From assembly GCA_030622125.1 (NCBI GenBank), contig JAUXGM010000038.1, positions 1 through 16,199 on the forward strand: a stretch of DNA of 16,199 nucleotides, in the 5' to 3' direction. The position numbers and the translations under genes are program-made. The stretch's first letter is position 1. Every line of letters begins with the position of its first letter. This document shows positions 1 to 16,199 of this stretch, piece by piece. This DNA is from a bacterium (GTDB lineage: Bacteria > AUK180). The notes under the pieces were generated by a model that was not told where the DNA came from, made no database searches, and saw nothing but the letters and a program-made list of their open reading frames with translations.

Positions 1-3000
1 AATAAAATTGAATTGCGCACAATTCCCAATTCGAATACCGTCCCAGGAATTACCGAGATCAGCAGTTCCGGTCACATCAGTTCCTATACAATTTCCTAAG
101 ACTACATTATTATCCGTTCCACTGCCATCAATTCTAACACCACTCTGGTCATTTCCTGAAATAATATTTCGTGCTGTTGCAATGGTTCCACCAATGGTAT
201 TTGATTTCGCTCCACTACGGATATATACACCACTCCATGAATTTCCAAGATCAGCAGTTCCATTCACATCTGTTCCTATATAATTTCCAAGTATCTGATT
301 ATTGCTTCCAAGAATATAGACCCCATTAATATCATTGCCTGATATGATATTTCTTGCCTCTGCAACTGTCCCGCCAACTGTATTTGATTGAGCACCAGCA
401 AATATGGCTACACCCTGGGATGAATTCCCCAGATCAGCAGTGCCGTTTACATTCGTTCCGATGTAATTACCGAGAACAACATTGTTATCAGTACCACTGT
501 TACAAATATAGACCCCATTAATGCCATTGCCTGATATGATATTTCTCGCTCCGGCGGTAGTGCCACCAATAGTATTTGATTGAGCACCGTTCTGGATTAA
601 TACCCCAGAAGATAAATTAGCGAGAGCATTAGAACCGGTTACATCTGTACCGATGTAATTACCAAGAACCACATTATCATTCGTATCTATATCTCTAATT
701 ATTATTCCACAGTTAGTATTACCTGAAATGATATTTCTTGCACCATCAATTGTACCACCAAGTGTATTTGATTGAGCACCATTACTGATGCGTACACCAT
801 ACTGTGAATTCCCCCTATCAAGAGTGCCAGTTACATCTGTTCCGATATAATTACCAAGAACAATATTATTATCTGTTCCACTTTCTTGGATATAGACACC
901 ATTTTGGTCATTACCTGATATAATATTTCTGGCACCTGCATCTGTACCACCAATTGTATTTGATTTTGCACCTCCGCCAATAGTGATACCGTGAGCTGTA
1001 TTACCTAAATCAGCAGTGCCATTCACATCAGTTCCTATGTAATTTCCAAGAACTATATTATTATCCGTTCCAATATCCCGAATATAAACACCACGGGTAT
1101 TATTGCCGGATATGATATTTCTCGCTCCTGCTATTGTACCGCCAATTGTATTTGATTGAGCACCGCTCGTAATGCTTATGCCACTGCCTGAGTTCCCTAA
1201 GCCGGCATCACCGGCGGCGTTTAAACCGATATAATTCCCGAGCACTTGATTATCATCAGTGCCGATGCTTGTAATATGGATACCATATTGATCATTAGCG
1301 GAAACAATATTTCCGGCTCCCGAGATCGTGCCGCCGATCGTATTTGACTGAGCACCACTCATGATGAGTACACCACTCTGTGTATTACCTAAAGCCGCGT
1401 CACCAGCGGCATTCGTTCCAATGTAATTACCAAGCACTTGGTTATTATCCGTACCGCTGCTCAAGATCCTGACACCATTCTGGCCGTTTCCGGATATGAT
1501 ATTTCTTGCTTCTGCGTCTGTTCCGCCAATTATATTTGATTGAGGACCACCGCCCATATAAATACCACATTGTGAATTGCCCAAATCTAAAGTACCGGAT
1601 ACATCCGTACCAATATAATTGCCGATGACCTTATTATTATCCGTGCCAATGCCATAGATATTAATTCCGCCGTTGTTCCCGGATATAATATTTCTCGCTC
1701 CTGCTATTGTACCACCAATTGTATTTGATTGAGCACCTACAACAATATCCACACCAACCTCCGAATTGCCAATATCAACAATCCCGGTTACATCTGTACC
1801 GATATAATTACCGATAACAACATTGTTATTTGTACCACTTTCACGGATTGAAACTCCCGCCCAGCCATTTCCTGAAATAACATTTCTTGCTCCGGCAATG
1901 GTACCGCCAATCGTATTCGATTGAGCGCCCCAAGAGATACATACCCCATGTCTGATATTACCCAAATCAGACGAGCCATTCACATCTGTCCCGATATAAT
2001 TGCCAAGTATTTTATTGTTATCTGTCCCACTATCTCTTATATAAACTCCGTAGTGGCCATTTCCGGAAATAATGTTTCTTGCTGCATCAGAATCGCCACC
2101 GATAATATTTGATTTGGCTCCCCCGCCAATAGTGATGCCATAATTTGTATTACCTAAATCTACAGTGCCATTCACATCAGTTCCTATGTAATTACCAATG
2201 ATTATGTTATTATCTACACCGTCATTGCCGTAAATAGATATTCCTGATTGACCGTTAGCGGATATGAGATTACCTTTCCCTGAAATAGTTGAACCGATCG
2301 TGTTTGCATGAGCTGCAGCTGTTATAGAGATGCCGTGCTGTGTATTTCCGAGAGCTGTATCCCCTGCTGCATTAGTGCCGATATAATTGCCGTATATTTC
2401 ATTATCATAAGCATCATTACAAAGAAAAACACCATGCTGGTCATTACCAGAGATGATATTTCTTGCGCCGTCAGAAGAACCGCCTACGATATTTAAATGG
2501 GCCCAACTGATCGAAACACCTGAATACGAATTGCCAATATCCAATGTGCCGGTTACATCCGTTCCTATATAATTACCAAGTATTTTATTACCGATACTAT
2601 CTTTACCTGTAATGTAGATCCCGGTTATATCATTACCTGAAACCAGGTTTCCCATTCCTGCAATAGTACTACCGATAGTATTTGAACTAGCACCGCTGTG
2701 AATATATATACCGGTATGAGAATTTCCAAGGTCAGCAGTGCCCGAAGTGTCTGTGCCCACATAATTATTTGCAATAAGATTTCCTGTGGCAGAAGCACCG
2801 GTTATTTTGATCCCAGAGGGTCTAAATCCGGGCAATCCAGAAAACCTATTAATTACCAGTCCGGCAACAATATTATTTGCGGAAGTTATACTTATACCAC
2901 TACATCCTGAGGTATTAGTTCCGTCTATTTCAACATCATGATTCAAGCCTGCAAAAATGATCGTTCCACCAGTGGTATCGCTCAGTGCCGGTAATGCACT

Positions 3001-3195
3001 TGTGGGTTGAATTGTTCCTGAAATGGAAAATACGATCGTATCCGCACCCGCATTCCCATTGGCATCCGTAATTGCCTGACGCAACGAACCTGGACCAGCA
3101 TCATTTGTAGTTATTACCGTATAAGTTGCAGAAAACAGACCAACAGCAGAAAAAACTAAACAAAGAAAAGAAAGAAAAAGTTTTTGGACTTTCAT
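1..3195 (-). CDS. Giant secreted right-handed beta-helix repeat protein with CSLREA-like N-terminus (3' end outside window)
   Basis: Probably a secreted or surface-anchored fibre-like protein of unknown ligand. Read on the minus strand, one frame stays open from ATG 3195 to base 1 (1065 codons) and leaves the window. Residues 1-23 form a signal peptide (MKVQKLFLSF start, cleavage probably after FSA). Residues 30-56 (TNDAGPGSLRQ, then GADTIVF) match the CSLREA-type domain that precedes beta-helices in large secreted proteins. From about residue 125 a unit of 63-65 residues recurs about 15 times. Each unit holds GNYIGTD-VTGTADLGNS, GV-I, GAQSNTIGGT and ARNIISGN, i.e. two beta-helix turns per unit. 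The conserved Ala codon of GAQS lies at 391, 583, 775, 967, 1159, 1351, 1543, 1732, 1924, 2116, 2311, 2500 and 2689, so spacing is 189, 192 or 195 bases. An AGGAG site (3202-3206) sits 6 nt before the ATG. The C-terminus, which could show the anchoring mode, is not in the window. Confidence 0.93.
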   Translation of the reverse strand, partial: MKVQKLFLSFLCLVFSAVGLFSATYTVITTNDAGPGSLRQAITDANGNAGADTIVFSISGTIQPTSALPALSDTTGGTIIFAGLNHDVEIDGTNTSGCSGISITSANNIVAGLVINRFSGLPGFRPSGIKITGASATGNLIANNYVGTDTSGTADLGNSHTGIYIHSGASSNTIGSTIAGMGNLVSGNDITGIYITGKDSIGNKILGNYIGTDVTGTLDIGNSYSGVSISWAHLNIVGGSSDGARNIISGNDQHGVFLCNDAYDNEIYGNYIGTNAAGDTALGNTQHGISITAAAHANTIGSTISGKGNLISANGQSGISIYGNDGVDNNIIIGNYIGTDVNGTVDLGNTNYGITIGGGAKSNIIGGDSDAARNIISGNGHYGVYIRDSGTDNNKILGNYIGTDVNGSSDLGNIRHGVCISWGAQSNTIGGTIAGARNVISGNGWAGVSIRESGTNNNVVIGNYIGTDVTGIVDIGNSEVGVDIVVGAQSNTIGGTIAGARNIISGNNGGINIYGIGTDNNKVIGNYIGTDVSGTLDLGNSQCGIYMGGGPQSNIIGGTDAEARNIISGNGQNGVRILSSGTDNNQVLGNYIGTNAAGDAALGNTQSGVLIMSGAQSNTIGGTISGAGNIVSANDQYGIHITSIGTDDNQVLGNYIGLNAAGDAGLGNSGSGISITSGAQSNTIGGTIAGARNIISGNNTRGVYIRDIGTDNNIVLGNYIGTDVNGTADLGNTAHGITIGGGAKSNTIGGTDAGARNIISGNDQNGVYIQESGTDNNIVLGNYIGTDVTGTLDRGNSQYGVRISNGAQSNTLGGTIDGARNIISGNTNCGIIIRDIDTNDNVVLGNYIGTDVTGSNALANLSSGVLIQNGAQSNTIGGTTAGARNIISGNGINGVYICNSGTDNNVVLGNYIGTNVNGTADLGNSSQGVAIFAGAQSNTVGGTVAEARNIISGNDINGVYILGSNNQILGNYIGTDVNGTADLGNSWSGVYIRSGAKSNTIGGTIATARNIISGNDQSGVRIDGSGTDNNVVLGNCIGTDVTGTADLGNSWDGIRIGNCAQFNFI

Positions 3196-3217: not shown

Positions 3218-3246
3218 ATTATAGCATAATTTTAATTAAAAATCAA
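3218..3246 (-). promoter_or_regulatory. Sigma-70 promoter of the beta-helix gene
   Basis: On the minus strand TTGATT (3246-3241), a 17-bp spacer and a perfect TATAAT (3223-3218) precede the beta-helix gene; transcription should start near 3211, leaving a short leader with AGGAG. The -35 box overlaps the stop codon of the transketolase subunit gene, so the beta-helix gene has its own promoter but could also receive read-through from the operon. Confidence 0.75.
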
Positions 3247-4097
3247 ATTGCATCAAGGTGTTCTTCGCCACTCTCCAATTCTGCCATTGCCTTCTTAAAT
3301 TCTTCTTCATTGGGTGCTCTGCCGTGCCACTGAACTTTGTTTTCCATAAAAGAAATACCTTTTCCTTTGATGGTCTTTGCAATGATTGCCACCGGTTTAT
3401 TCTTTACAGAATTTACTTTTTTAAATCCGTCTATGATCTCTTTTAAATTATGACCGGCTATTTCAATTACTTCCCAATTAAAACTTTCCAATCTCTTCTT
3501 TAACGGATTTTTATTTTTTACTTCATCTACCTTTCCGTCAATTTGAAGACCGTTAAAATCAACTATCATGATCACATTGTCAAGTTTATAATGACCGGCA
3601 GTGGAGATCGCTTCCCATATCTGCCCCTCATCCATTTCACCATCGCCAACCATACAGTAAACATAAGCAGAATTTTTATCATATTTGAGTGACATTGCAA
3701 TACCGTTTGCAATTGATAACCCCTGCCCAAGTGACCCGCTTGAAACTTCTATTCCGGCGGTCTTTAACATATGCGGATGTCCTTGAAGGTTGGAATCGAT
3801 CTTCCTAAATGTTTTTAATTCCTCAACGGGAAAATAGCCGGTCATTGCTAAAACAGTGTAAAGTGCAGGACAAATATGCCCTTTTGAAAGTATAAATCGA
3901 TCCCTTTCATTCCAATCAGGCTCATCCGATCTATGTCTCAAAAAATTATAATAGAGAGCAACTAAAATATCTATTGCTGAAAGCGAGCCGCCGGGATGTC
4001 CCGATCCGGCAAGATAGATCATTTTAATAATATGCTTACGTGCCATGTATGCCCGTTTTTTTAATTCAATTATAGAGAGACCTATTGGATATTCCAT
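3243..4097 (-). CDS. Transketolase, N-terminal (TPP pyrophosphate-binding) subunit
   Basis: Cytoplasmic thiamine-diphosphate enzyme subunit of the non-oxidative pentose phosphate pathway; it supplies the half of the active site that binds the TPP diphosphate and Mg2+. The 284 residues carry GSGHPGGSLS (31-40), SKGH (71-74), GSLGQG (121-126) and the TPP/metal motif GDGEMDEG (151-158) followed by N182, all standard for the family. The length is typical for the N-terminal half of a split transketolase. Its partner, the C-terminal pyrimidine-binding subunit, normally follows directly; here the next gene downstream is the unrelated beta-helix gene. The start at 4097 overlaps the patatin gene by 16 nt and has AGGGA just upstream, so translation is probably coupled. 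Other TPP enzymes with the same fold (DXS, split sugar-transketolase-like enzymes) are less likely given the close match to transketolase N-halves. Confidence 0.92.
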   Translation of the reverse strand: MEYPIGLSIIELKKRAYMARKHIIKMIYLAGSGHPGGSLSAIDILVALYYNFLRHRSDEPDWNERDRFILSKGHICPALYTVLAMTGYFPVEELKTFRKIDSNLQGHPHMLKTAGIEVSSGSLGQGLSIANGIAMSLKYDKNSAYVYCMVGDGEMDEGQIWEAISTAGHYKLDNVIMIVDFNGLQIDGKVDEVKNKNPLKKRLESFNWEVIEIAGHNLKEIIDGFKKVNSVKNKPVAIIAKTIKGKGISFMENKVQWHGRAPNEEEFKKAMAELESGEEHLDAI

Positions 4098-4960
4098 CTT
4101 GTCCCTTTGAACATTTTGAAATTTCTTTTTTTTATGCCCTTATTTTTATATGAGTAGGTTTCCTTTTTAATACTTTTTTTTGCGCTTACATAAATTTTTC
4201 TATATAACGAAAAGTCCGACCATTTATATTCTCTTAGGTCAAATCTTTTAACAAAAGTTGCAAAATGCCTTTCCAAATTATTTAAATAAGAGCTGTAAAT
4301 ATTATTTAGGTTCATCAAGAGTGAAATCCCACTGAGTTCTCCGTTTGGCTCCTTATAACTTCCGGATATATCAGAAAGATAAGTCCTGTCCGCTCCCAAT
4401 TTATAAGCATATAATACCGGAATATTTTCTAAAAAACCACCATCGGAAAAATATTCTCCATTGATATCAACGGGTGGAAAAACAACCGGCACCGACATTG
4501 AAGCAACAATTGCAGGGACAAGTTCTCCCTTTGAAAAAATAGTATAATTACCTTTGGTTAAATTAACAGCTCCTAAATATATGGGAATAGGGAGTTCTTC
4601 AAATCTAATCTTGCCGAATATATCATAAAACAATTGAAAAACTTCCTCATTTTGAAAAAGAGACGATTGCTTTACAAGTTTAAGACCATCAAAAAATGTT
4701 TTAGCAGTATGAAAAATATTCTTATGCTCCGGATTTGCAAAATGTTCTTCTATTTTTTTTAATATATCCATAGAAAAAACTTTACTTTCCAAACCCTTTA
4801 TCTTTTTTATATCACCGTTAAAAAAACTATATAAAGCAGCAGCAAATGCACCCGCACTTACACCGATGATACTGTTTATCTTTAAATTACAATTTTCTAA
4901 AAAGGCGATGTGAGCAATTCCTTTGACCCCGCCGCCGGAAAGTATAATAAAATTTTTCAC
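4082..4960 (-). CDS. Patatin-like phospholipase (acyl hydrolase)
   Basis: Predicted lipid acyl hydrolase using a Ser-Asp dyad. The 292-residue protein has the oxyanion-hole motif GGGVKG (9-14), the nucleophile elbow GVSAG with Ser35 (33-37) and the catalytic Asp in DGG (D173-G175), in the order and spacing of bacterial RssA/YchK-type patatins. No signal peptide or membrane segment is seen, so it is probably cytosolic or peripherally membrane-bound. The start codon overlaps the stop of the upstream 372-aa gene (ATGA, 4960-4957), and its 3' end overlaps the transketolase gene, so it is embedded in the operon. The C-terminal 90 residues are Lys- and Tyr-rich. Substrate is unknown. Confidence 0.9.
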   Translation of the reverse strand: MKNFIILSGGGVKGIAHIAFLENCNLKINSIIGVSAGAFAAALYSFFNGDIKKIKGLESKVFSMDILKKIEEHFANPEHKNIFHTAKTFFDGLKLVKQSSLFQNEEVFQLFYDIFGKIRFEELPIPIYLGAVNLTKGNYTIFSKGELVPAIVASMSVPVVFPPVDINGEYFSDGGFLENIPVLYAYKLGADRTYLSDISGSYKEPNGELSGISLLMNLNNIYSSYLNNLERHFATFVKRFDLREYKWSDFSLYRKIYVSAKKSIKKETYSYKNKGIKKRNFKMFKGTRWNIQ

Positions 4961-6075
4961 CCTTCAATGATCTCAACATTTGCTCGAGGAACAATAACCT
5001 TATCCCCGTTTTCAAGTTCAACTTCCACTACCCTGACCATTGCCTCTGATTCTAATTTTTGGAGTTTTGACGGCAGAGAAACAACCTTAGCGATCTCGCC
5101 AAAATATGGATTTCTTATTATTCTGATATTTTTGCCCTTTTCAAGAAAATATTCCGGTGCCTTAATATGTTCATCGGAGTAATTTAAATCGGTTGCAATG
5201 ATCTCAGGTCTGATAACCCCTGCTCTTATCTGTGTTGCACCGTTTATTGAAACAAATTTGCCATCAAGTGATCTTAAAAGCTCAAAGGTCTGCTTAGCCA
5301 TATTTATCATACCAAATCCTTCCGTAACAACAATAGAAAGCGGGATTTTTTCATTTCCGGTGATCGCTACCCCGATCTCATATCCGAGAAGTGCTTTTAT
5401 GTCGGCATCATCAATTCCTGCTGTAATAATGCCCTTAACACCGATTGCCATTGCTTTTTTAATAAAATGATAATCCGTATGTGAACCTGCAACAATAATT
5501 TTGTCTTTTAGGTCATCGCTGAGATCATCTGTTTTAGCACTCTTTTCAGGTCCGCTTACAATAACTTTTAAGTTACCCATTCTTTCACCGCCAAGTCCGA
5601 AGATGCCCTGGATAAAAGAACCTTTTGTTTTAATAATAACTCCTTCTTCCGGTATAACTTCCTTTACAATACCGCCAATGTATGCCAACACATTAATTGG
5701 TTGAGGCTGCATTCTCAAAACACATTGACCGGTAACTGTTGAGATAGATTCTACAATACCGTTAATAGGTGATTTTACAGTATCTCTTATAAGTCCGAAA
5801 AGTGACTTTTTTTCCGCAAGGACCTGCTCCTGTTTAATATCATCTCCTTCTTTCACAAGTAAAAATTTCTCCATTTCAGCCGGAAGAATTCCCATTTTTC
5901 CTGCAACTTTAATAATGTAAACATTCCCCGGAAGTTCTGCTGACGCCACTATATCAAATGGCTTTACTTCATCGCCTTTTTCTACCAATGTTTTTCCCTT
6001 TATAGGAAGCAACCTTTCCTTTTCTATTAAGGTATATTTTGAAACCTTTAATCCTGGTGTATATGCTTGTCCCAT
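4957..6075 (-). CDS. Conserved GlmL-neighbour protein with lipoyl/barrel-sandwich-like segment, function unknown
   Basis: Not assigned to a characterised function. The 372 residues contain no signal peptide. Residues 24-60 (KGKTLVEKGDEVKPFDIVA) and 96-122 (KSPINGIVESISTVTGQCV) resemble the paired half-motifs of biotinyl/lipoyl or RnfC-type hammerhead folds, but no modifiable Lys in an MKM or DKA motif is visible. Residues 155-270 are Gly-rich and look like an alpha/beta domain (FGLGGERMGNLKV, then IIVAGSHTDYHFIKKAMAIG, then GIITAGIDD). The last 40 residues (VRVVEVELENGDKVIVPRAN) look like a small beta-barrel. An AGGGAG site lies in the end of the upstream ATPase gene, whose TAA is 2 nt before this ATG, so the two are surely co-translated. 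That linkage suggests it works with the GlmL-like ATPase, perhaps as its client or membrane adaptor; this is inference. Confidence 0.8.
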   Translation of the reverse strand: MGQAYTPGLKVSKYTLIEKERLLPIKGKTLVEKGDEVKPFDIVASAELPGNVYIIKVAGKMGILPAEMEKFLLVKEGDDIKQEQVLAEKKSLFGLIRDTVKSPINGIVESISTVTGQCVLRMQPQPINVLAYIGGIVKEVIPEEGVIIKTKGSFIQGIFGLGGERMGNLKVIVSGPEKSAKTDDLSDDLKDKIIVAGSHTDYHFIKKAMAIGVKGIITAGIDDADIKALLGYEIGVAITGNEKIPLSIVVTEGFGMINMAKQTFELLRSLDGKFVSINGATQIRAGVIRPEIIATDLNYSDEHIKAPEYFLEKGKNIRIIRNPYFGEIAKVVSLPSKLQKLESEAMVRVVEVELENGDKVIVPRANVEIIEG

Positions 6076-6077
6076 AA

Positions 6078-7913
6078 TTATCTCCCTGTTATTTTCTCAA
6101 ATTCATCGGTTGGATATAAATTCATTGCTTTATACCATTTAACGATCTTTTCTTTTCGCTGCTCATCGTTTAAATTGATATTAAAAGGTCTTCCCCTTGT
6201 ATCAATAATAATACCTACAACCCCACCGTTTAATGTTGCTTCAATCGGTTTATTATTACCGGCGCCCATATTAAATCCCTGCAATGGTTTTATCGTTGCC
6301 TTTGCTGTTTCACCAGCACCAAGCGGATAGATAACGATCTCACCATAGTTTATTTTTTCTGTTTTTCTTTTCCCATCGGGGAATTCAATATCTACTTCCA
6401 ATACAGGTTTTATTCCTTTCTTTAAATTACCAAAAGGTGCCACTGATGTTCCAAGATAGATCAGACAATCTTTTTCAAAAACATCGGTAGCTGCCTTTTC
6501 ATTTACCTGGGAAAGAACACCGAGCTGCGGCATCATAAAGATACTGTCAACCGTAAGATCGGTTATTCCAATTGGGGCGAAGGCATCTATCATCATTAAA
6601 GCCGCTTGTTGGCGTCTTGGTGAATGAGAAAGCACACCGCCGGAGCCAACGAGCATATCCAATTTAAACATATCTATCAATGTTTGCCCTGATGTTTTCT
6701 GAGAAAAGGCATCCGATATCGTCCTCTGCTGTTGAACACCTTTTAAACCGACGGCAAGGGATTTATGCTGGATAAAAGCGAGACGAAGTGCTTCTCTTGC
6801 CAATGCTTGTTCTATCAGTAATTCTTCAAGTGTTTGTGGGATCGTTGTTGGTCTGATCATCTTGTTCTTTATTCGGTTCCTAATATCTTTCAGATCGGGA
6901 TGAAATGGTAGCCATCTCATAATATTATCCGCTCCGGCTTCAGCAAAAACCTCACTTATCGAATATGACATTCCAAGGTTTGCAGAAACCGTTCTATTAA
7001 ATATATTTCCAAACACCGAAAAGATATCAGTTGTTGCACCGCCTATATCAACGCCCACGATATCGATCTTTTTCTGCTTTGCAATTGTTTGCATAATGAG
7101 CCCGACAGCACCGGGAGTCGGCATAATATCTACATCCGTCCATTCCATCAATGTTTTATAACCCGGGGCATGTGCCATAACATGTTCAAGGAACAATTCC
7201 TGGATCATTAACCTTGCAGGCATAAGATTTTCCCTCTCTAATGTAGGTCTAATGTTATCGGTAACCTGTAATGCAGTGGCTTTGAGTGTTTCTTTTATAT
7301 TTTCTCTTGCTGCCGTGTTGCCTGCATAAATAACAGGTAATTGATAGGAAATACCCAAACGGGCTTTGGGGTTCGCTGCCTTGATGATCTCAGCAAGTTC
7401 TACTACATGTTTGATCGTTCCGCCATCCGTGCCGCCGGATAAAAGTATCATGTCCGGTCGCAAGTGTCTTATTATTTCAATCTTTTCATGGATAGGTCTT
7501 GTATCATTTGTTGCTATGATATCCATAACAATTGCACCGGCACCAAGAGCCGCTCTCTCTGCGGATTCTGCCGTCATACTTTTTACAACACCCGCAACCA
7601 TCATTTGAAGTCCGCCTCCCGCCGAAGAGGTCGATATATAAATATCTGTTCCTTCCTTATCGTTTTCTTGCGGTTTAATGAATTCTTGCTTTTCATTTAA
7701 AAACTTAATATCGGTAAGTTCTTCAAGTTCGCCAACCGCATTGATAACACCTTTTGTAACATTCTCAACCGGTGCTTCAACAGTAGTGGGTGCTTCACCT
7801 CTTTTAATAAGACGGTAAAATTCACCTTTTTTTTCTATAAGGATCGCCTTTGTGGTGGTAGAACCGCAGTCGGTTGCCACAATTCTTTTGATATCGGAAT
7901 AACCAGTCTCCAT
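6078..7913 (-). CDS. GlmL/MutL-family ASKHA ATPase (glutamate mutase L-like)
   Basis: Member of the GlmL (MutL) family, acetate/sugar kinase-Hsp70-actin fold proteins encoded beside adenosylcobalamin-dependent glutamate mutase and ornithine aminomutase and thought to act as reactivating chaperones. The 611 residues show the phosphate-1 loop DCGSTTTK (15-22), the family motif SSAGGGLQMMVAG (from 96), phosphate-2 VDIGGATTD (288-296) and the adenosine loop GSGG (423-426) followed by VLSHSPRR. All ATPase motifs are intact, so it should be active. The start is well supported: AAGGAG (7921-7926) lies 7 nt upstream. It sits 16 nt after the 104-aa gene and 2 nt before the 372-aa gene. No mutase subunit (no DxHxxG cobalamin motif) occurs in the window, so its client is unknown. 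It is unrelated to DNA mismatch-repair MutL. Confidence 0.9.
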   Translation of the reverse strand: METGYSDIKRIVATDCGSTTTKAILIEKKGEFYRLIKRGEAPTTVEAPVENVTKGVINAVGELEELTDIKFLNEKQEFIKPQENDKEGTDIYISTSSAGGGLQMMVAGVVKSMTAESAERAALGAGAIVMDIIATNDTRPIHEKIEIIRHLRPDMILLSGGTDGGTIKHVVELAEIIKAANPKARLGISYQLPVIYAGNTAARENIKETLKATALQVTDNIRPTLERENLMPARLMIQELFLEHVMAHAPGYKTLMEWTDVDIMPTPGAVGLIMQTIAKQKKIDIVGVDIGGATTDIFSVFGNIFNRTVSANLGMSYSISEVFAEAGADNIMRWLPFHPDLKDIRNRIKNKMIRPTTIPQTLEELLIEQALAREALRLAFIQHKSLAVGLKGVQQQRTISDAFSQKTSGQTLIDMFKLDMLVGSGGVLSHSPRRQQAALMMIDAFAPIGITDLTVDSIFMMPQLGVLSQVNEKAATDVFEKDCLIYLGTSVAPFGNLKKGIKPVLEVDIEFPDGKRKTEKINYGEIVIYPLGAGETAKATIKPLQGFNMGAGNNKPIEATLNGGVVGIIIDTRGRPFNINLNDEQRKEKIVKWYKAMNLYPTDEFEKITGR

Positions 7914-7929
7914 ATACTAACTCCTTTTC

Positions 7930-8244
7930 TTATTTCTTTTTTGCTTTTTTTAATGCCCTTTGCTCTTCTCTTTTTTCTTTGTCATACTTTTCTATCATAT
8001 CAATTATTATATCAATTGAATCTCTTTTTTCAAGAAAATTCACAAATTCGCTATAATCATTTTTTACAACAAATGCCTTTATAAACGGCTCAAAAAGTGC
8101 CATTCCCTGACTTGCCACATAATTTAAGGGTCTATTTAATTCGATAAAAAGGATTGCAGGGGTAGCAAATCCGTGATCAACAATAAATCGTGCCACTTTT
8201 TCTGCTACAATAAGTTCATTTTCTTTTATGTTACTCGTTTCCAT
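7930..8244 (-). CDS. Small conserved protein preceding GlmL-like ATPase, function unknown
   Basis: A 104-residue soluble protein with no assigned function. Residues 12-56 (ending FATPAILFIELNRPL, then NYVASQGMALFEPFIKAF) carry a pattern I recall from short proteins next to GlmL-type ATPases in other phyla: Ala-Pro-Ala-like turn, FxE, PL, SQ, F-P. It may be an amphipathic helical membrane-associated segment. The C-terminus (84-104) is highly charged and Lys-rich (KYDKEKREEQRALKKAKKK). The start overlaps the upstream membrane protein gene by 14 nt, and the stop is 16 nt before the ATPase gene, so it is translated within the same operon and probably works with the ATPase. That functional link is inferred from position only. 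Confidence 0.82.
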   Translation of the reverse strand: METSNIKENELIVAEKVARFIVDHGFATPAILFIELNRPLNYVASQGMALFEPFIKAFVVKNDYSEFVNFLEKRDSIDIIIDMIEKYDKEKREEQRALKKAKKK

Positions 8245-8653
8245 TTTCTATCTTTTCCATAACGAACGATCTTACTTTTTTTTGTATATCCGGCGGACAG
8301 AAGATCATAATTCCTCTTGTTCTATCAAGCCAATTTCTATTCTTGTAGGGACTTAAAAAAAATCCTGCATCATTAAATTCAACCCTTTTATAATTCGTCC
8401 ACTTTATTGAAAATCTCAAAAAAACTCTCTTGATCTTTATTCCCTCATCATCTATAAAATAAACGGTTGGCATCCAATACTGCATAAATGCAAAGAAAAA
8501 AAATAAAATATAGAGTATTAGATAGAGCCCGGCAACAAAGATGTGATGAGTAAAAAAACCAATGATAAAAAGCACGGCGATCAAGACAATACTTTTTAAC
8601 GGATTATCAATAAGTGGATGTACTTTCCAATCTTGTTTCATCATATTATACAT
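8231..8653 (-). CDS. Small membrane protein, two-helix hairpin with cytoplasmic PH-like tail
   Basis: First gene of the operon; 140 residues. Two adjacent hydrophobic helices (about 21-35 and 39-59, SIVLIAVLFIIGFF and GLYLILYILFFFFAFM) form a membrane hairpin. They are followed by about 75 soluble residues with alternating beta-strand pattern (TVYFIDDEGIKIKRVFLRFSIKWTNYKRVEF, then TRGIMIFCPP). This layout resembles bacterial PH-domain membrane proteins (YdbS/bPH2 type) but the match is by pattern only. Three Met codons (8653, 8644, 8641) could start it. A promoter whose -10 box covers 8652-8657 would start RNA near 8645, so the in-frame ATG pair at 8644/8641 may be the true, leaderless start. 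It overlaps the 104-aa gene by 14 nt. Confidence 0.75.
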   Translation of the reverse strand: MYNMMKQDWKVHPLIDNPLKSIVLIAVLFIIGFFTHHIFVAGLYLILYILFFFFAFMQYWMPTVYFIDDEGIKIKRVFLRFSIKWTNYKRVEFNDAGFFLSPYKNRNWLDRTRGIMIFCPPDIQKKVRSFVMEKIENGNE

Positions 8654-9434: not shown

Positions 9435-10646
9435 CTAAATATTCCAGGGAAATAAAAAATTTTTACTTTTACAATTTTTTTTATTAATATTTAGCACTAT
9501 GATATTTAAAATACTTTTAGGATATTTTTCCAAAAAACCTTTAAACTGAGCGGGATGTTTGCCGGAATAAGTTTGTTTAACTTCATATCCGAATATCTTT
9601 TGAGCCTTTTCAACGACAAAATCAATTTCTTGACCGGATTTTGTTCTCCAAAATTTTAATTTTCCCCCTTTTTTTCTCAAAATTGAAAAAATTGCGTTTT
9701 CAAACATTAACCCATCAGTAACTTTTACAAATTCCCCAAATCTTAAAATGTTTCTTAAACCATTATCTTCAAAGTATATTTTAGGCATCTTTGATAATTC
9801 ACTTCTCAAATTAGTGAAAAATGGTCTTACTGTTTTAATGACATAAGTATTTTCCAAAAGAGCAATACTATCTTTTACTGTTGCTCTTGCAATTCCCAAT
9901 GTAGATGAAATCTCATTTATATTTAATAATCCATTATTGGCAGATAATATTTTTAATATTTTATTAAATCTTTCTATATCACGCACATTACCAATTTCTC
10001 TAATATCTTTCCGCAAGTATGTCCCAATAATGTTCTGTAAATATCTATCCTTTTGTTCCTCATTTTCCAATAAAACAACTCGTGGATATCCTCCATAAAT
10101 AATAAATTCTTCAAACATTTTTTTTAATTCCTCATTTATTGTATTAGAAATAATTTTTGTGTCAATGTTATATTTTACATTTTTAAACTCTAAAAATTCC
10201 TCGAAATCTAACCCAAAAAGTTCAAATTCAAAAAATCTTCCAGCCATACTGTCTTTAAATTTCTTCTTTATCTCGAAGGAAGATGAGCCTGAAACAATTA
10301 ATTTGCAATTTTTTGAATGATGATCATAAATTTGCTTCAAAAATGTTGATGGATTATTTAAGTATTGAATTTCATCAATAAAAACATATTTTTTTACTTT
10401 AATATTGGTTTTATAATCAATATATTTTATAAATTCACTAACCCCGGCATTACATAAATCCAGATACTTTTGGTTCTCAAGATCAAAATACAGAATATTG
10501 TTCGAATCTATTTTTTTACCTTGTAAATATTCAATAAGCATTTTCATTATCGTTGTTTTACCAACTTGTCTTGCTCCATGAATAACGATTATTTCCTTTA
10601 AATCTATATATTTAAGGAGTTCTTTTAATAATTTTCTCTCTATCAT
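9435..10646 (-). CDS. AAA_14/DUF4143 ATPase with PD-(D/E)XK-like C-terminus (copy 1)
   Basis: Stand-alone ATP-binding protein of the family common in bacteria and archaea and still without a settled function. From ATG 10646 it has 403 residues: Walker A GARQVGKT (24-31), Walker B YVFIDE with D91-E92, sensor SGSSS (119-123), likely arginine finger R137 (SMAGRF), a winged-helix-like stretch around 250-280 (LNINEISSTLGIARATVKDS), and a C-terminal DUF4143 part with the nuclease-like signature EIDFVV...YEVK (E340, D342, E355, K357). I chose ATG 10646 because the longer reading from TTG 10694 would begin inside the -35 box. The gene is clearly more AT-rich than the operon and is flanked by repeats, which suggests horizontal acquisition. 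It is paralogous to 14275-15555. Confidence 0.9.
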   Translation of the reverse strand: MIERKLLKELLKYIDLKEIIVIHGARQVGKTTIMKMLIEYLQGKKIDSNNILYFDLENQKYLDLCNAGVSEFIKYIDYKTNIKVKKYVFIDEIQYLNNPSTFLKQIYDHHSKNCKLIVSGSSSFEIKKKFKDSMAGRFFEFELFGLDFEEFLEFKNVKYNIDTKIISNTINEELKKMFEEFIIYGGYPRVVLLENEEQKDRYLQNIIGTYLRKDIREIGNVRDIERFNKILKILSANNGLLNINEISSTLGIARATVKDSIALLENTYVIKTVRPFFTNLRSELSKMPKIYFEDNGLRNILRFGEFVKVTDGLMFENAIFSILRKKGGKLKFWRTKSGQEIDFVVEKAQKIFGYEVKQTYSGKHPAQFKGFLEKYPKSILNIIVLNINKKNCKSKNFLFPWNI

Positions 10647-10665
10647 ATTTTTCGCCTTTTGTGCA

Positions 10666-10694
10666 ATTATACAATATTTTTTATTTTTTGTCAA
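10666..10694 (-). promoter_or_regulatory. Perfect-consensus sigma-70 promoter of ATPase copy 1
   Basis: On the minus strand TTGACA (10694-10689), exactly 17 bp, then TATAAT (10671-10666): the ideal strong promoter. RNA should start near 10659, giving a leader of about 13 nt with a weak AAAGG site before ATG 10646. Two operator-like repeats lie just upstream, consistent with a strong promoter held under repression. Confidence 0.85.
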
Positions 10695-12028: not shown

Positions 12029-14152
12029 TTAATTAATAACCGCAAATTTTGAGATGCTGTGTTGAGCGTTGCAGGTAACGGTAACAATATAGATGCCCGA
12101 TCTTAATCTTGATGTTTTATATGTAATATTGTTCTTATCTCGATAAACTATTGCACTTTTTGTAACTATTGAATTTCCGGAAATCGTATATATATCAAAA
12201 TCCTCTATATCAAGTGCCCATTTGATCCTAATTTCGGAGGCGCCATTCTTGGTAGCAATCGGATTCGGATAAACCAAAACAGGTGGAGTAACTACTTTTC
12301 CAATTTTTAAATAACAAAATTTTTCCACATTATTTGTATCCTCATTATTGCTTTCGTCTTCTGCCCGAACAATATAATAGTATGTAATACCGGTTGCAAG
12401 CTCCGAATCATAATATTTTAATGCTGTTGTGCTTCCAACGGGATTTAGGAGATCTTCATCTCCGGGTAAAATGGAACGATAAACATTATAGGTAATATTT
12501 TCATCAACATTGTCGGTTGCTTTATTCCACACAAGTAAAAGTTCGTCGGGGGCATCAACGGTAAAAATTGCACCAACGCCGGCAAAACTCGGGGGGGTTG
12601 TATCGCCATTAGGTATAGCAGATCTCTCAACATTATTTTTTTCTTCTCTACTATCGGCATCCATTGCCCTTACAACATAGTAATATCTTTGTCCATCCAC
12701 TAAATCTTTATCAATGTAACTTAATGTTGTAAGTCCTGATATCGTCGGATTTGCAAAATCTTCACCACCTGAGGTTGTTGATCTATAAATATTATAAGTG
12801 ATCGGCGGAGAATTATCATGAGCAGCATCCCATTGCAAAAATGTTTCACCCGGGTTACCTGTCAATCCTGCCGATCTTAATCCATCGAAATCCGGAGGCG
12901 ATATGTCTTGAGATGGTGCTATGCTCATTTCAACACTATTACTATCCTCATTTCCTAAGACATCCTCTGCACGAACAAGGAAATAATAGATTGTATCCGG
13001 AGTTAATCCCATTACTGTGTATGATGTATTACTTACCGTTGTATGATCGGGAACTTCAAAGTTATACCCCATTGATGAATTTGCCTGATAGATGTTATAG
13101 GTAATCGGATAAGAGCCGGCGGTATCATTTGCACTATCCCATGAAAGTATGACATCCCCACCATTTTGTGTATCCTGAATATTTTTGATCCCACTGAAAA
13201 TTGGCGGATCTTCTTCACAGGGAACATCGCAGGGGTATGCCTTTGTTGTTAGAGCACCGCCGGAAACAGTATAACTGCATCCATCTGTCTCAAGCAGGAT
13301 ATTATCATTTGCGATCTCTCCCCAGCCGACACCAAGTGTTCCGCCATCACCGGTTTCCGTTTGATAAATATAACTTCCGACATTATGTATGCGGTCTATT
13401 ACCTCTTGCGTTGGATGACCGTATGTATTGTTACCAACTGAAATTATTGAAACTTCAGGTGTTATGTATCCAAGAAAATCACTTGTTGAACTTGTATTTG
13501 AACCGTGATGATCTACTTGATAGACATCGATATCTCCAAGGTCATCACCAAGTATTGCTTCCATCCCATCTTCAATATCCCCACCGATAAAAAGATCAAA
13601 TTCTTTATAGGATATAAGGACAGAAACACCGAGTTCGTTTTCGTTTGTTGTTGAAATTGATCCGCCGGAATTGAATACGGAACCGTTCAGCGTTAGAAAT
13701 TTCATGGTTACGCCGGCACCAAGATCAATTGTCTCCCCAAGAGTTACCGTTTTTCTGCCGCCGGTGGTCGTAGTTATAGCATTTAAATAATCCGGATAAA
13801 CAATGATACTACTGTAACTTTCACCCCTATCATAACATCCATAGATGACATCAACGCCGGTATACGCGCCCGCACCATTTATAATCTCGTCCAATCCACC
13901 AATATGGTCTTCGTGGTAATGGGTAGCGATCATATAATCAATTGTATTACTATATCCATTTTCATTTAGTATCTTTAAGGTTTCTTCACCATATCCTGTA
14001 TTACAGTCTATTACGATTGTTTTTCCTGAAGGTGTAATAATTAGAGACCCATCACCCTGCCCCACATCAACAAAATATACCCTTAGTTTGTTCCCAAAGG
14101 TAAAAAGTGAAAAGAAAAGTAAGAATATTATTATAAAATTTATTCTTTTCAT
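12029..14152 (-). CDS. Secreted ComEC-type metallo-beta-lactamase with three FN3 domains and sorting-like C-terminus
   Basis: Predicted exported metal-dependent hydrolase, possibly a nuclease, related to the soluble beta-lactamase-fold domain of ComEC/Rec2. From ATG 14152 it has 707 residues: signal peptide 1-20 (MKRINFIIIFLLFFSLFTFG); catalytic domain about 21-300 with FVDVGQGDGSLI, the metal motif THYHEDHIGG (H78, H80, D82, H83), GGDIEDG (D192) and DHHGSN (D214-H216); three fibronectin type III domains near 318-415, 418-515 and 519-615; and a C-terminal domain from about 622 (VLVYPNP, then DIYTISG, then SGIYIVTV) like FlgD-Ig or type IX-type sorting tails. ATG 14152 is preferred over the longer TTG 14188 because the TTG is part of the -35 box. 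There is no Shine-Dalgarno site. No transporter half of ComEC is present, so a role in DNA uptake is unproven. Confidence 0.88.
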   Translation of the reverse strand: MKRINFIIIFLLFFSLFTFGNKLRVYFVDVGQGDGSLIITPSGKTIVIDCNTGYGEETLKILNENGYSNTIDYMIATHYHEDHIGGLDEIINGAGAYTGVDVIYGCYDRGESYSSIIVYPDYLNAITTTTGGRKTVTLGETIDLGAGVTMKFLTLNGSVFNSGGSISTTNENELGVSVLISYKEFDLFIGGDIEDGMEAILGDDLGDIDVYQVDHHGSNTSSTSDFLGYITPEVSIISVGNNTYGHPTQEVIDRIHNVGSYIYQTETGDGGTLGVGWGEIANDNILLETDGCSYTVSGGALTTKAYPCDVPCEEDPPIFSGIKNIQDTQNGGDVILSWDSANDTAGSYPITYNIYQANSSMGYNFEVPDHTTVSNTSYTVMGLTPDTIYYFLVRAEDVLGNEDSNSVEMSIAPSQDISPPDFDGLRSAGLTGNPGETFLQWDAAHDNSPPITYNIYRSTTSGGEDFANPTISGLTTLSYIDKDLVDGQRYYYVVRAMDADSREEKNNVERSAIPNGDTTPPSFAGVGAIFTVDAPDELLLVWNKATDNVDENITYNVYRSILPGDEDLLNPVGSTTALKYYDSELATGITYYYIVRAEDESNNEDTNNVEKFCYLKIGKVVTPPVLVYPNPIATKNGASEIRIKWALDIEDFDIYTISGNSIVTKSAIVYRDKNNITYKTSRLRSGIYIVTVTCNAQHSISKFAVIN

Positions 14153-14159
14153 AAGTAAT

Positions 14160-14188
14160 ATATTACCATTTTTTATAAAATTATGCAA
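14160..14188 (-). promoter_or_regulatory. Promoter of the ComEC-type gene, leaderless arrangement
   Basis: Minus strand TTGCAT (14188-14183), 17 bp, TAATAT (14165-14160). Exactly 7 nt separate the -10 box from ATG 14152, so RNA would begin at the start codon. No ribosome-binding site exists upstream of either possible start. Confidence 0.6.
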
Positions 14189-14274: not shown

Positions 14275-15555
14275 ATGAATGAATTGTATGAAAGAAAAAT
14301 CTTAAACAAAGTACGAAAATGGCTTAATAAACCGGAAATTATTGTTCTTTTGGGTGCAAGACAAGTTGGAAAAACTTCCATTTTAAAACTTTTAATGGAT
14401 GACATGAAAGATAAGCAATTTATTTATTTTGACCTTGAGAACACCTATAATTTAGAGTTATTTTCTAATACAGAATTTTTTTTAAACTATTTGCGAGGAA
14501 AAGACCTATTAAAATCAAAAAAACTTTATATTTTTATTGATGATTTTCAATATATGCAAGATACAACAAAATTTTTAAAATTAATGTATGATGGATATCC
14601 CAATCTTAAATTTATTGTAACAGGTTCTTCTTCTCTTGAAATTAAAAGAAATTTTTCCGAATCTTTAACAGGAAGAAAAATAATTTTAAAAATTCATTCC
14701 CTTGATTTTGAAGAATTTTTGTTATTTAAGGAGAGTGATCTATTATCTATTAAACAGAAAATTAATATAAGAAAAATTGCAGAAGATTTTTCCATTGCCG
14801 AAGAGTTATCTATTTTTACAAAAAAAATAAATGTATTCCTGAATGAATTTATTGTTTATGGTGGTTATCCGAAACCTGTTCTTACCCCTGACATAGATGA
14901 TAAAATCCTGCGATTAAAAGAGATACACAATTCTTATATAAAAAAAGATATAAAAGATATAGGAAAAATTGATAATATTTTGGAATTCAATAAATTGGTT
15001 TCTGTTCTTGCATTAAATAATGGCAATCAATTTAATGTAAAAAATATTACGGAAGAATTTGGTATAAAAAGAAGACATATTGAAAAATACATAGATCTAT
15101 TAAAGGAAACTTTTGTTATTAATATTTTAAAGCCATATTTTAGAAATAAAAAAAAGGAAATAATCAAAATGCCGAAAATATATTTTAGCGATTCAGGCTT
15201 AAGAAATTTAAATATATCGGATTTTAGAAATTTGGAAAGTAGAAACGATAAAGGTACTCTTACAGAAACATTTTTCTATAATGAAATATTAAAAAATAAA
15301 GGGGAATTGGAAAAAATTAGATATTGGAGAACAAAAACAGATAGTGAAGTAGATTTTATAATTATTAAAGAAAATTCAATAATGTCTTATGAAATTAAAT
15401 TTAAGAATCAAATAAAAATAAAAGATTTTTCTTCCTCAAGAAAGTTTTGTAATAAATATTCAATAAATAAAGCCTTTATTATAACAAAAGAATATTTAGA
15501 ACATAAAAAAGTTGATAATATTGATTATTATTTTATACCTCTCTGGATGATATAG
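14275..15555 (+). CDS. AAA_14/DUF4143 ATPase (copy 2) with Asp-Asp Walker B
   Basis: Paralogue of the ATPase at 9435-10646, 426 residues. It keeps Walker A GARQVGKT (27-34), the YFDLEN strand, sensor TGSSSLEIKR (117-125), the arginine finger candidate R134 (LTGRK), VYGGYPKPV, IKKDIKDIGKI, YFSDSGLRN and the C-terminal nuclease-like signature SEVDFII...YEIK (E358, D360, E373, K375). Walker B reads YIFIDD (85-90): the usual catalytic Glu after the Asp is replaced by D90, and the usual IQ is FQ, so ATP hydrolysis may be altered. A 25-residue charged insertion near 150-180 (SDLLSIKQKINIRKIAEDFS) accounts for the greater length. The gene is strikingly AT-rich and Lys/Ile-rich compared with the operon, consistent with separate acquisition. 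It is transcribed alone. Confidence 0.9.
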   Translation: MNELYERKILNKVRKWLNKPEIIVLLGARQVGKTSILKLLMDDMKDKQFIYFDLENTYNLELFSNTEFFLNYLRGKDLLKSKKLYIFIDDFQYMQDTTKFLKLMYDGYPNLKFIVTGSSSLEIKRNFSESLTGRKIILKIHSLDFEEFLLFKESDLLSIKQKINIRKIAEDFSIAEELSIFTKKINVFLNEFIVYGGYPKPVLTPDIDDKILRLKEIHNSYIKKDIKDIGKIDNILEFNKLVSVLALNNGNQFNVKNITEEFGIKRRHIEKYIDLLKETFVINILKPYFRNKKKEIIKMPKIYFSDSGLRNLNISDFRNLESRNDKGTLTETFFYNEILKNKGELEKIRYWRTKTDSEVDFIIIKENSIMSYEIKFKNQIKIKDFSSSRKFCNKYSINKAFIITKEYLEHKKVDNIDYYFIPLWMI

Positions 15556-15644: not shown

Positions 15645-15713
15645 ATGAAGAAGGTATTTTCAATAGAAGCATTCAAGGATGTTCATAGGATATCATTTAG
15701 TTTTTTATTCTAA
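15645..15713 (+). CDS. Possible 22-residue leader ORF
   Basis: Starts MKKVFSIEAF and ends in a hydrophobic SFSFLF. It has the best ribosome site in the area, GGAGG (15635-15639), 5 nt before the ATG, and lies wholly between the promoter and the delta-60 gene; its TAA is 13 nt before the next ATG. It could couple or gate translation of the large gene. It could also be a remnant of a former signal-peptide start. No homologue is recognised. Confidence 0.4.
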   Translation: MKKVFSIEAFKDVHRISFSFLF

Positions 15714-15726
15714 GATGGAGAAGAAG

Positions 15727-16199
15727 ATGAAAAAAATATTATTTTTGACTGTGTTGATATGTATGTTTTTGCCAGAAGGTATTTATGCAGCATCTGTAGA
15801 TGATGGTTTTAACCCTGATGCAGATAATCCGGCCTTTCCCATAACAGTTCAATCCGATGGGAAAGTACTTGTCGGCGGTATGTTTACAACAATAGGCGGT
15901 GTGACAAGAAATCGTATAGCCCGCTTGAATGCAGATGGTACACTTGACGCAACATTTGACCCTGATGCAAATAACGCGGTTTTTTCCATAGCAGTTCAAT
16001 CAGATGGGAAAACAATCCTCGGTGGTTTTTTTACCGCAATTGGTGGTGTTACAAGAAATCGTATAGCCCGCTTGAATGCAGATGGTACACTTGACGCAGC
16101 ATTTGACCCTTCTGCAAATGCTGCTGTTATTTCCATAGCAGTTCAATCAGATGGCAAGATAATTATTATTGGTTGGTTTACAGCAATAGGTGGTGTGAC
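15727..16199 (+). CDS. Secreted delta-60 repeat protein (3' end outside window)
   Basis: The first 157 codons of a probably large exported protein. Residues 1-21 form a signal peptide (MKKILFLTVLICMFLPEG, cleaved near YAA). From residue 27 the delta-60 repeat follows: FNPDADN, then VQSDGKVLVGGMFTTIGG, then VTRNRIARLNADGTLDATF. The repeat is 49 codons (147 bp) long here, and a third copy has begun at the right edge. Delta-60 repeats are known as beta-propeller-like modules in surface proteins; function is unknown. Copies 1 and 2 are identical over 48 bases (15904-15951 and 16051-16098), which points to recent duplication or gene conversion. GGAG (15717-15720) lies 6 nt before the ATG. Confidence 0.9.
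   Translation, partial: MKKILFLTVLICMFLPEGIYAASVDDGFNPDADNPAFPITVQSDGKVLVGGMFTTIGGVTRNRIARLNADGTLDATFDPDANNAVFSIAVQSDGKTILGGFFTAIGGVTRNRIARLNADGTLDAAFDPSANAAVISIAVQSDGKIIIIGWFTAIGGV

Follow-up and report, generated by a model that had tools for sequence, protein, structure and literature searches.

What does a GlmL-type ATPase do in a bacterium in which no B12 mutase accompanies it? In one account, GlmL is a chaperone that restores glutamate mutase to activity (PMC4682846). The window analysed here, a stretch of bacterial DNA of 16,199 nucleotides, encodes a member of this ATPase family between a small protein of 104 residues (P104) and a protein of 372 residues (P372), and the original prediction was that the three may be a self-contained machine working without any mutase. 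The three genes supply the cytosolic half of a conserved system that is larger and includes a membrane cassette of four further genes (DUF6754, M212, M285, and M219). The best explanation, to which we give a probability of about 0.45, is that they encode the ATP-driven cytosolic half of an undescribed envelope machine in which GlmL would act through P372 on the DUF6754 complex. The features of the operon, in the order in which they are read, are as follows.

8231 to 8653, minus strand: M150, a small membrane protein of 140 residues; it opens the gene string and overlaps P104 by 14 nt
7930 to 8244, minus strand: P104, a soluble protein of 104 residues with the motif PAIxFxESxxPLxxIGSQ and a basic tail; a new family
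6078 to 7913, minus strand: long-type GlmL/MutL-family ASKHA ATPase of 611 residues, matching PF13941
4957 to 6075, minus strand: P372, a putative adaptor of 372 residues with a predicted barrel-sandwich hybrid (~10-145), a swivelling beta/beta/alpha domain (~130-300), and a KOW/SH3 domain (~307-372)
4082 to 4960, minus strand: patatin-like lipase, overlapping P372 by 4 nt; a lineage-restricted operon passenger
3243 to 4097, minus strand: N-terminal half of a transketolase; a lineage-restricted passenger

The coordinates of these minus-strand reading frames agree with the strict order first proposed for P104, GlmL, and P372, with gaps of 16 nt between P104 and GlmL and 2 nt between GlmL and P372. 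The genome to which the window belongs (G000; 2.08 Mb, 96% complete) was searched family by family.

The ATPase aligns to all 450 positions of the Pfam MutL model PF13941 (E = 1.5e-126; 423 bits against a cut-off of 27), and its ATP motifs DCGSTTTK, DIGGATTD, and GSGGVLSH are conserved in the GlmL alignment; its description as an intact GlmL/MutL-family ASKHA ATPase was therefore correct. With GlmL/MutL, the accessory ATPase of glutamate mutase (NF040745, PF13941), it shares the homologous ASKHA domain and all three nucleotide motifs, but it differs in several respects. It misses the NCBIfam cut-offs for GlmL (NF040745; 225.5 bits vs. 475) and for the GlmL family as a whole (161 bits vs. 204), it exceeds mutase-linked GlmL by about 130 residues at the C-terminus, and it accompanies the P104, P372, and DUF6754 families rather than being tied to mutases. 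The long-type proteins and the mutase-linked GlmL and Or-4 proteins sampled form separate clades in a quick tree, in which long branches leave the placement of fusions unsure. Or-4 (NF040744), the GlmL-related protein of ornithine aminomutase, belongs to the same ATPase superfamily, but the present protein scores 205 bits against the cut-off of 600, and its own bacterial family lacks the aminomutase (PF09043).

The second MutL protein of the same genome (contig C40) is a natural GlmL–P372 fusion of 861 residues, the C-terminal part of which is 26% identical to residues 99-293 of P372 in a pairwise search (E = 4e-11). Further GlmL fusions with P372-like C-termini are found in four genomes (G001, G006, G087, and G120). 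Fused genes are a classic sign that two proteins are direct partners, and the two chains probably work together; of the two roles originally offered for P372, client or partner, the fused sequences favour the partner. A fusion-type MutL gene lies one gene after M219 of a cassette in G006, and about 730 nt after M219 in G005.

Among GTDB species genomes, at least 580 relatives of P372 were counted, distributed over many phyla. Its AlphaFold model (pLDDT 87.6, from an alignment of 65 sequences) was compared with known folds domain by domain. The N-terminus resembles barrel-sandwich or biotin-carrier folds; the middle part (residues 130-300) matches swivelling β/β/α domains, with RraA at Z 9.3 and domains of pyruvate kinase and rifampin phosphotransferase at Z ~8-9; and the C-terminus matches the KOW domains of NusG/Spt5 at Z ~8-9. 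Scores of Z ~8-9 at 10-24% identity indicate a common fold, not a common function. Solved structures yielded no match to the whole chain, and reactivase structures are absent among the fold matches listed. By hhalign, P372, DUF6754, M285, and the other families of the system show no homology to one another.

Earlier, P372 had been called lipoyl-like. As far as the fold is concerned the term stands, given the barrel-sandwich part of the model; the Pfam Biotin_lipoyl score (E = 0.92) is below the cut-off, and the conserved hairpin lysine is missing. No lysine or histidine is invariant in the 65 sequences, which argues against both a lipoyl carrier and a phosphohistidine enzyme; in particular, the lack of an invariant lysine at a hairpin position makes a carrier of the lipoyl type unlikely. 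Likewise, residues 130-300 share the fold of RraA, of the pyruvate-kinase C-terminal domain, and of phosphohistidine swivelling domains, but P372 has no conserved histidine and its flanking domains are different. The modelled protein fits an adaptor with swivelling and KOW domains better than it fits a lipoyl carrier.

The barrel-sandwich part of P372 also gives sub-threshold Pfam matches to RnfC_N (E = 0.001; 19.6 bits vs. 25.6) and NQRA_N (E = 0.002; 18.6 bits vs. 25), and GlmL gives a weak Pfam match to BcrAD_BadFG (E = 0.008). Together with the multiple transmembrane segments of the cassette subunits, these matches are what a redox or ion-pumping membrane complex would lead one to expect, one in which P372 is a docking subunit like RnfC or NqrA and GlmL an ATP-dependent electron activator like BadF. 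Such a complex is unlikely, however: the similarity is restricted to the barrel-sandwich fold, P372 has a swivelling domain in its middle part rather than Complex1_51K (which gave no match), no cysteine is invariant in the 65 P372 sequences, and the alignments of GlmL, P104, M150, and the cassette proteins contain no CxxC cluster motif.

Profile searches of 154 genomes for B12-dependent enzymes (methylmalonyl-CoA mutase, PF01642; glutamate mutase E, PF06368; lysine/ornithine aminomutase, PF09043; and the class II ribonucleotide reductase NrdJ) gave no match in the genome of the window or in four relatives of its family (91-96% complete). PF06368 in particular is absent from all five (G000-G004). 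No mutase of these families elsewhere in the genome tracks this GlmL, and the earlier statement that the module is mutase-free now extends from the window to the family. It extends further, as 14 of the 39 genomes with P372 have none of the three mutase families, so that P104 and P372 do co-occur with GlmL where these mutases are lacking. Across the 154 genomes, P372 and mutases occur independently of each other, any B12 mutase being present in 25/39 genomes with P372 and 60/115 without it (Fisher test, p = 0.26). As positive controls, three genomes (G084, G112, and G124) have a classical short GlmL (455-510 residues) located 150-190 bp from PF06368, and G124 has another short GlmL beside an aminomutase. 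None of the mutase-linked GlmL genes sampled has P104 upstream, and P372 is missing from them as well. Within the window, the only trace of a mutase or cobalamin domain is a B12-binding score below threshold, which falls within the ATPase. The dehydratase large subunit (PF02286) had no match in the genome of the window, and no control genome matched either.

A helper of a hidden mutase of these families is accordingly rejected. A broader form of the idea is that GlmL, P372, and P104 are a reactivase or chaperone for an unrecognised adenosylcobalamin enzyme, as proposed for GlmL and as shown for the diol dehydratase reactivase. Apart from the kinship of the ATPase with GlmL, it can draw on the glycerol dehydratase reactivase, which joins an ATPase domain of ASKHA type to a swivelling domain and has a small second subunit that is released from the latter when ATP is hydrolysed (PMC7674605), a matching parts list. 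In the DdrAB/GdrAB proteins the ATPase and swivelling parts belong to one chain, as they do in the 861-residue paralogue on C40. The likeness shown is nevertheless one of parts rather than of sequence, and the partner genes of the present system encode a membrane complex. The mutase families searched are missing from the family, the B12-binding domains of the genome are located in two reading frames with the look of radical-SAM proteins, P372 shows no correlation with mutases, and the GlmL proteins that do serve mutases are short, adjoin their mutase, and lack P104 and P372. A B12 reactivase is therefore distinctly unlikely.

Gene order shows what accompanies the ATPase instead. The neighbour table comprises about 120 loci picked around P372, DUF6754, or MutL matches, and its frequencies are conditional on that choice. 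Two orders are fixed: M150–P104–GlmL–P372 and, separately, DUF6754–M212–M285–M219. GlmL is the next gene after P104 in 46/50 testable loci, P372 is the next gene after MutL in 54/84 (a count over all MutL genes that takes in the fusions and the short classical GlmL), and M150 is directly upstream of P104 in 23/26 testable loci; the order and adjacency originally reported are far beyond chance. In the cassette, DUF6754 is followed by M212 (38/40), M212 by M285 (33/37), and M285 by M219 (33/35). In several phyla the two halves form one continuous string. The complete eight-gene string is present in three loci (L062, L104, and L123), and three others (L064, L122, and L036) have the same string from P104 to M219 without a called M150. 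The patatin gene adjoins P372 in 7 loci only; together with the glycine-cleavage and purine (purS/purQ/comF) neighbours, it is judged to be lineage-specific.

Presence and absence were scored in 154 genomes, of which most are the sole representative of their family, and compared by Fisher tests that ignore phylogeny; this sampling limits the effect of kinship on the p values that follow but does not remove it. DUF6754 occurs in 39/39 genomes with P372 and in 3/115 without it (p = 2e-33; 42 DUF6754 genomes in total), a long or fused GlmL in 38/39 P372 genomes (p = 2e-32), and P104 in 37/39 (p = 1e-29). The exceptions are few: a P104 match is absent from G014 and G036, DUF6754 occurs without P372 in G005, G064, and G083, and G093 (85% complete) has P104 and GlmL but neither P372 nor the cassette. 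One complete genome, G013 (100%; loci L039 and L139-L141), combines P372 and P104 with three cassettes and gave no MutL/PF13941 match; GlmL may be dispensable there, or it may have been missed, and the genome is a natural test of whether the ATPase is required. P104, GlmL, and P372 are thus a conserved unit, linked genome by genome as had been predicted. They are not self-contained, given their strict co-occurrence with, and sometimes adjacency to, the cassette and M150.

Co-occurrence on this scale could also reflect common ancestry within lineages, the three-gene operon having a function separate from that of the cassette. What counts in favour of this is that P372 adjoins GlmL in many loci and the cassette in only a minority (14/94 have DUF6754 as the next gene). 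The probability is nonetheless low, since the contrast of 39/39 to 3/115 was obtained from many phyla with mostly one genome per family, and the adjacency recurs in several phyla in varied arrangements, with a fusion-type GlmL after the cassette or P104 beside DUF6754.

P104 has no relatives in Pfam, PDB, or PHROGs, and in G010 and G066 it adjoins DUF6754 apart from GlmL. M150, which has no Pfam match, has one or more hydrophobic segments near residues 20-60. The first gene of the cassette is a clear member of DUF6754 (PF20539), a family for which no paper was found in the literature searched. According to hydropathy and positive-inside residues, on which all cassette topology rests here, DUF6754 has an extracytoplasmic FN3 domain, a transmembrane segment, a predicted cytosolic domain, and a final segment; M212 and M219 are predicted to be multi-pass proteins, and M285 a soluble domain flanked by two segments. 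The predicted cytosolic domain of DUF6754 is very conserved (…GRATEMG…AESLILAETG…DYTxxGEELxAAS…). The structure model of DUF6754 is poor (pLDDT 61) and usable for the FN3 domain only. The genome of the window has two cassettes, one on contig C112 (DUF6754 of 587 residues, M212, M285, and M219) and one, with a short DUF6754, on contig C8.

Several tandem DUF6754 cassettes occur with a single GlmL, which would suit one scaffold for several complexes, and the ASKHA fold has cytoskeletal members, but an ATPase that polymerises on the membrane by way of P104 and M150 and arranges DUF6754 complexes spatially, like FtsA or MreB, is very unlikely, as GlmL family members are not known to form polymers and the swivelling domain of the conserved adaptor points to conformational coupling.

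In the envelope machine that is preferred here, the membrane half would consist of the DUF6754–M212–M285–M219 cassette and of M150, encoded just upstream of P104. GlmL would bind and hydrolyse ATP. P372 would be its dedicated adaptor, with a swivelling domain that couples the opening and closing of the ATPase to the client and with barrel-sandwich and KOW domains that provide contacts, while anchoring the ATPase at the membrane would fall to P104 (and M150). Either power strokes or binding controlled by nucleotide could then act on the cytosolic domain of DUF6754, and a membrane complex with extracytoplasmic FN3 and M285 domains might be assembled, gated, or reset. The logic would be that of a reactivase, with a membrane complex as the client. 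Given a reactivase-like parts list and accompanying genes for a membrane complex, we propose that ATP drives the remodelling, gating, or assembly of that DUF6754 complex. The parts and their partners are established by the data; physical contact, remodelling, and the envelope role are what we infer.

On this evidence the system is apparently undescribed and, apart from having an ATPase of known superfamily, matches no known kind; no mutase-free GlmL system was found in the openly accessible literature searched. The system is carried by hundreds of genomes in many phyla, most of them uncultured (WOR-3, Cloacimonadota, Zixibacteria, Fermentibacteria, Poribacteria, Riflebacteria, some Bacillota, and others); one cultivated member is Candidatus Syntrophosphaera thermopropionivorans (L070). 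Because the ATPase falls in Pfam MutL, it would readily be taken for a mutase helper, and metabolic reconstructions would be misled towards B12-dependent glutamate fermentation. At least seven linked families lacking an assigned function are defined as one testable unit, and there is a second setting for learning what GlmL-type ATPases do. The odds appear even that a widespread ATP-driven envelope machine of this type exists, in which a DUF6754 complex of four subunits receives energy from, or is remodelled by, a GlmL-type ATPase and its swivelling/KOW adaptor, and that such coupling extends beyond B12 enzymes.

Several minor observations concern copy number and neighbours. In two Bacillota loci (L107 and L110), two consecutive GlmL genes are found upstream of P372, the first followed by a gene of ~455 residues that falls into the same similarity cluster; the arrangement looks like a tandem duplication of the GlmL–P372 pair. 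The cassette is present in three tandem copies in L155 (G142), and contig G108:C183 has four DUF6754 matches; P372 and GlmL are single-copy in both. In G005 (L149, 4129-5871), three tandem paralogues of ~185 residues lie directly upstream of the DUF6754 cassette. The glycine-cleavage genes gcvPA/gcvPB are just upstream of M150/P104 in nine loci from several phyla (L062, L091, L092, L098, L105, L119, L122, L123, and L126). The transketolase N-terminal half of the window (3243-4097) has no adjoining C-terminal half and is followed by a long repetitive reading frame; in the relative L030/L048, both halves (277 and 316 residues) come after the patatin gene. The repetitive frame (1-3195, minus strand) encodes a surface-type protein of at least 1065 residues with many N-x-IGGT...ARNIISGN repeats and no Pfam match. 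Two AAA_14/DUF4143 ATPases of the same family lie on opposite strands (9435-10694, minus; 14275-15555, plus). A secreted-looking protein (12029-14188, minus strand) combines a metallo-beta-lactamase fold with an FN3 domain and a type IX secretion sorting tail (Por_Secre_tail), and a DUF5122 beta-propeller repeat protein begins at 15679-16197 (plus strand) and runs off the contig.
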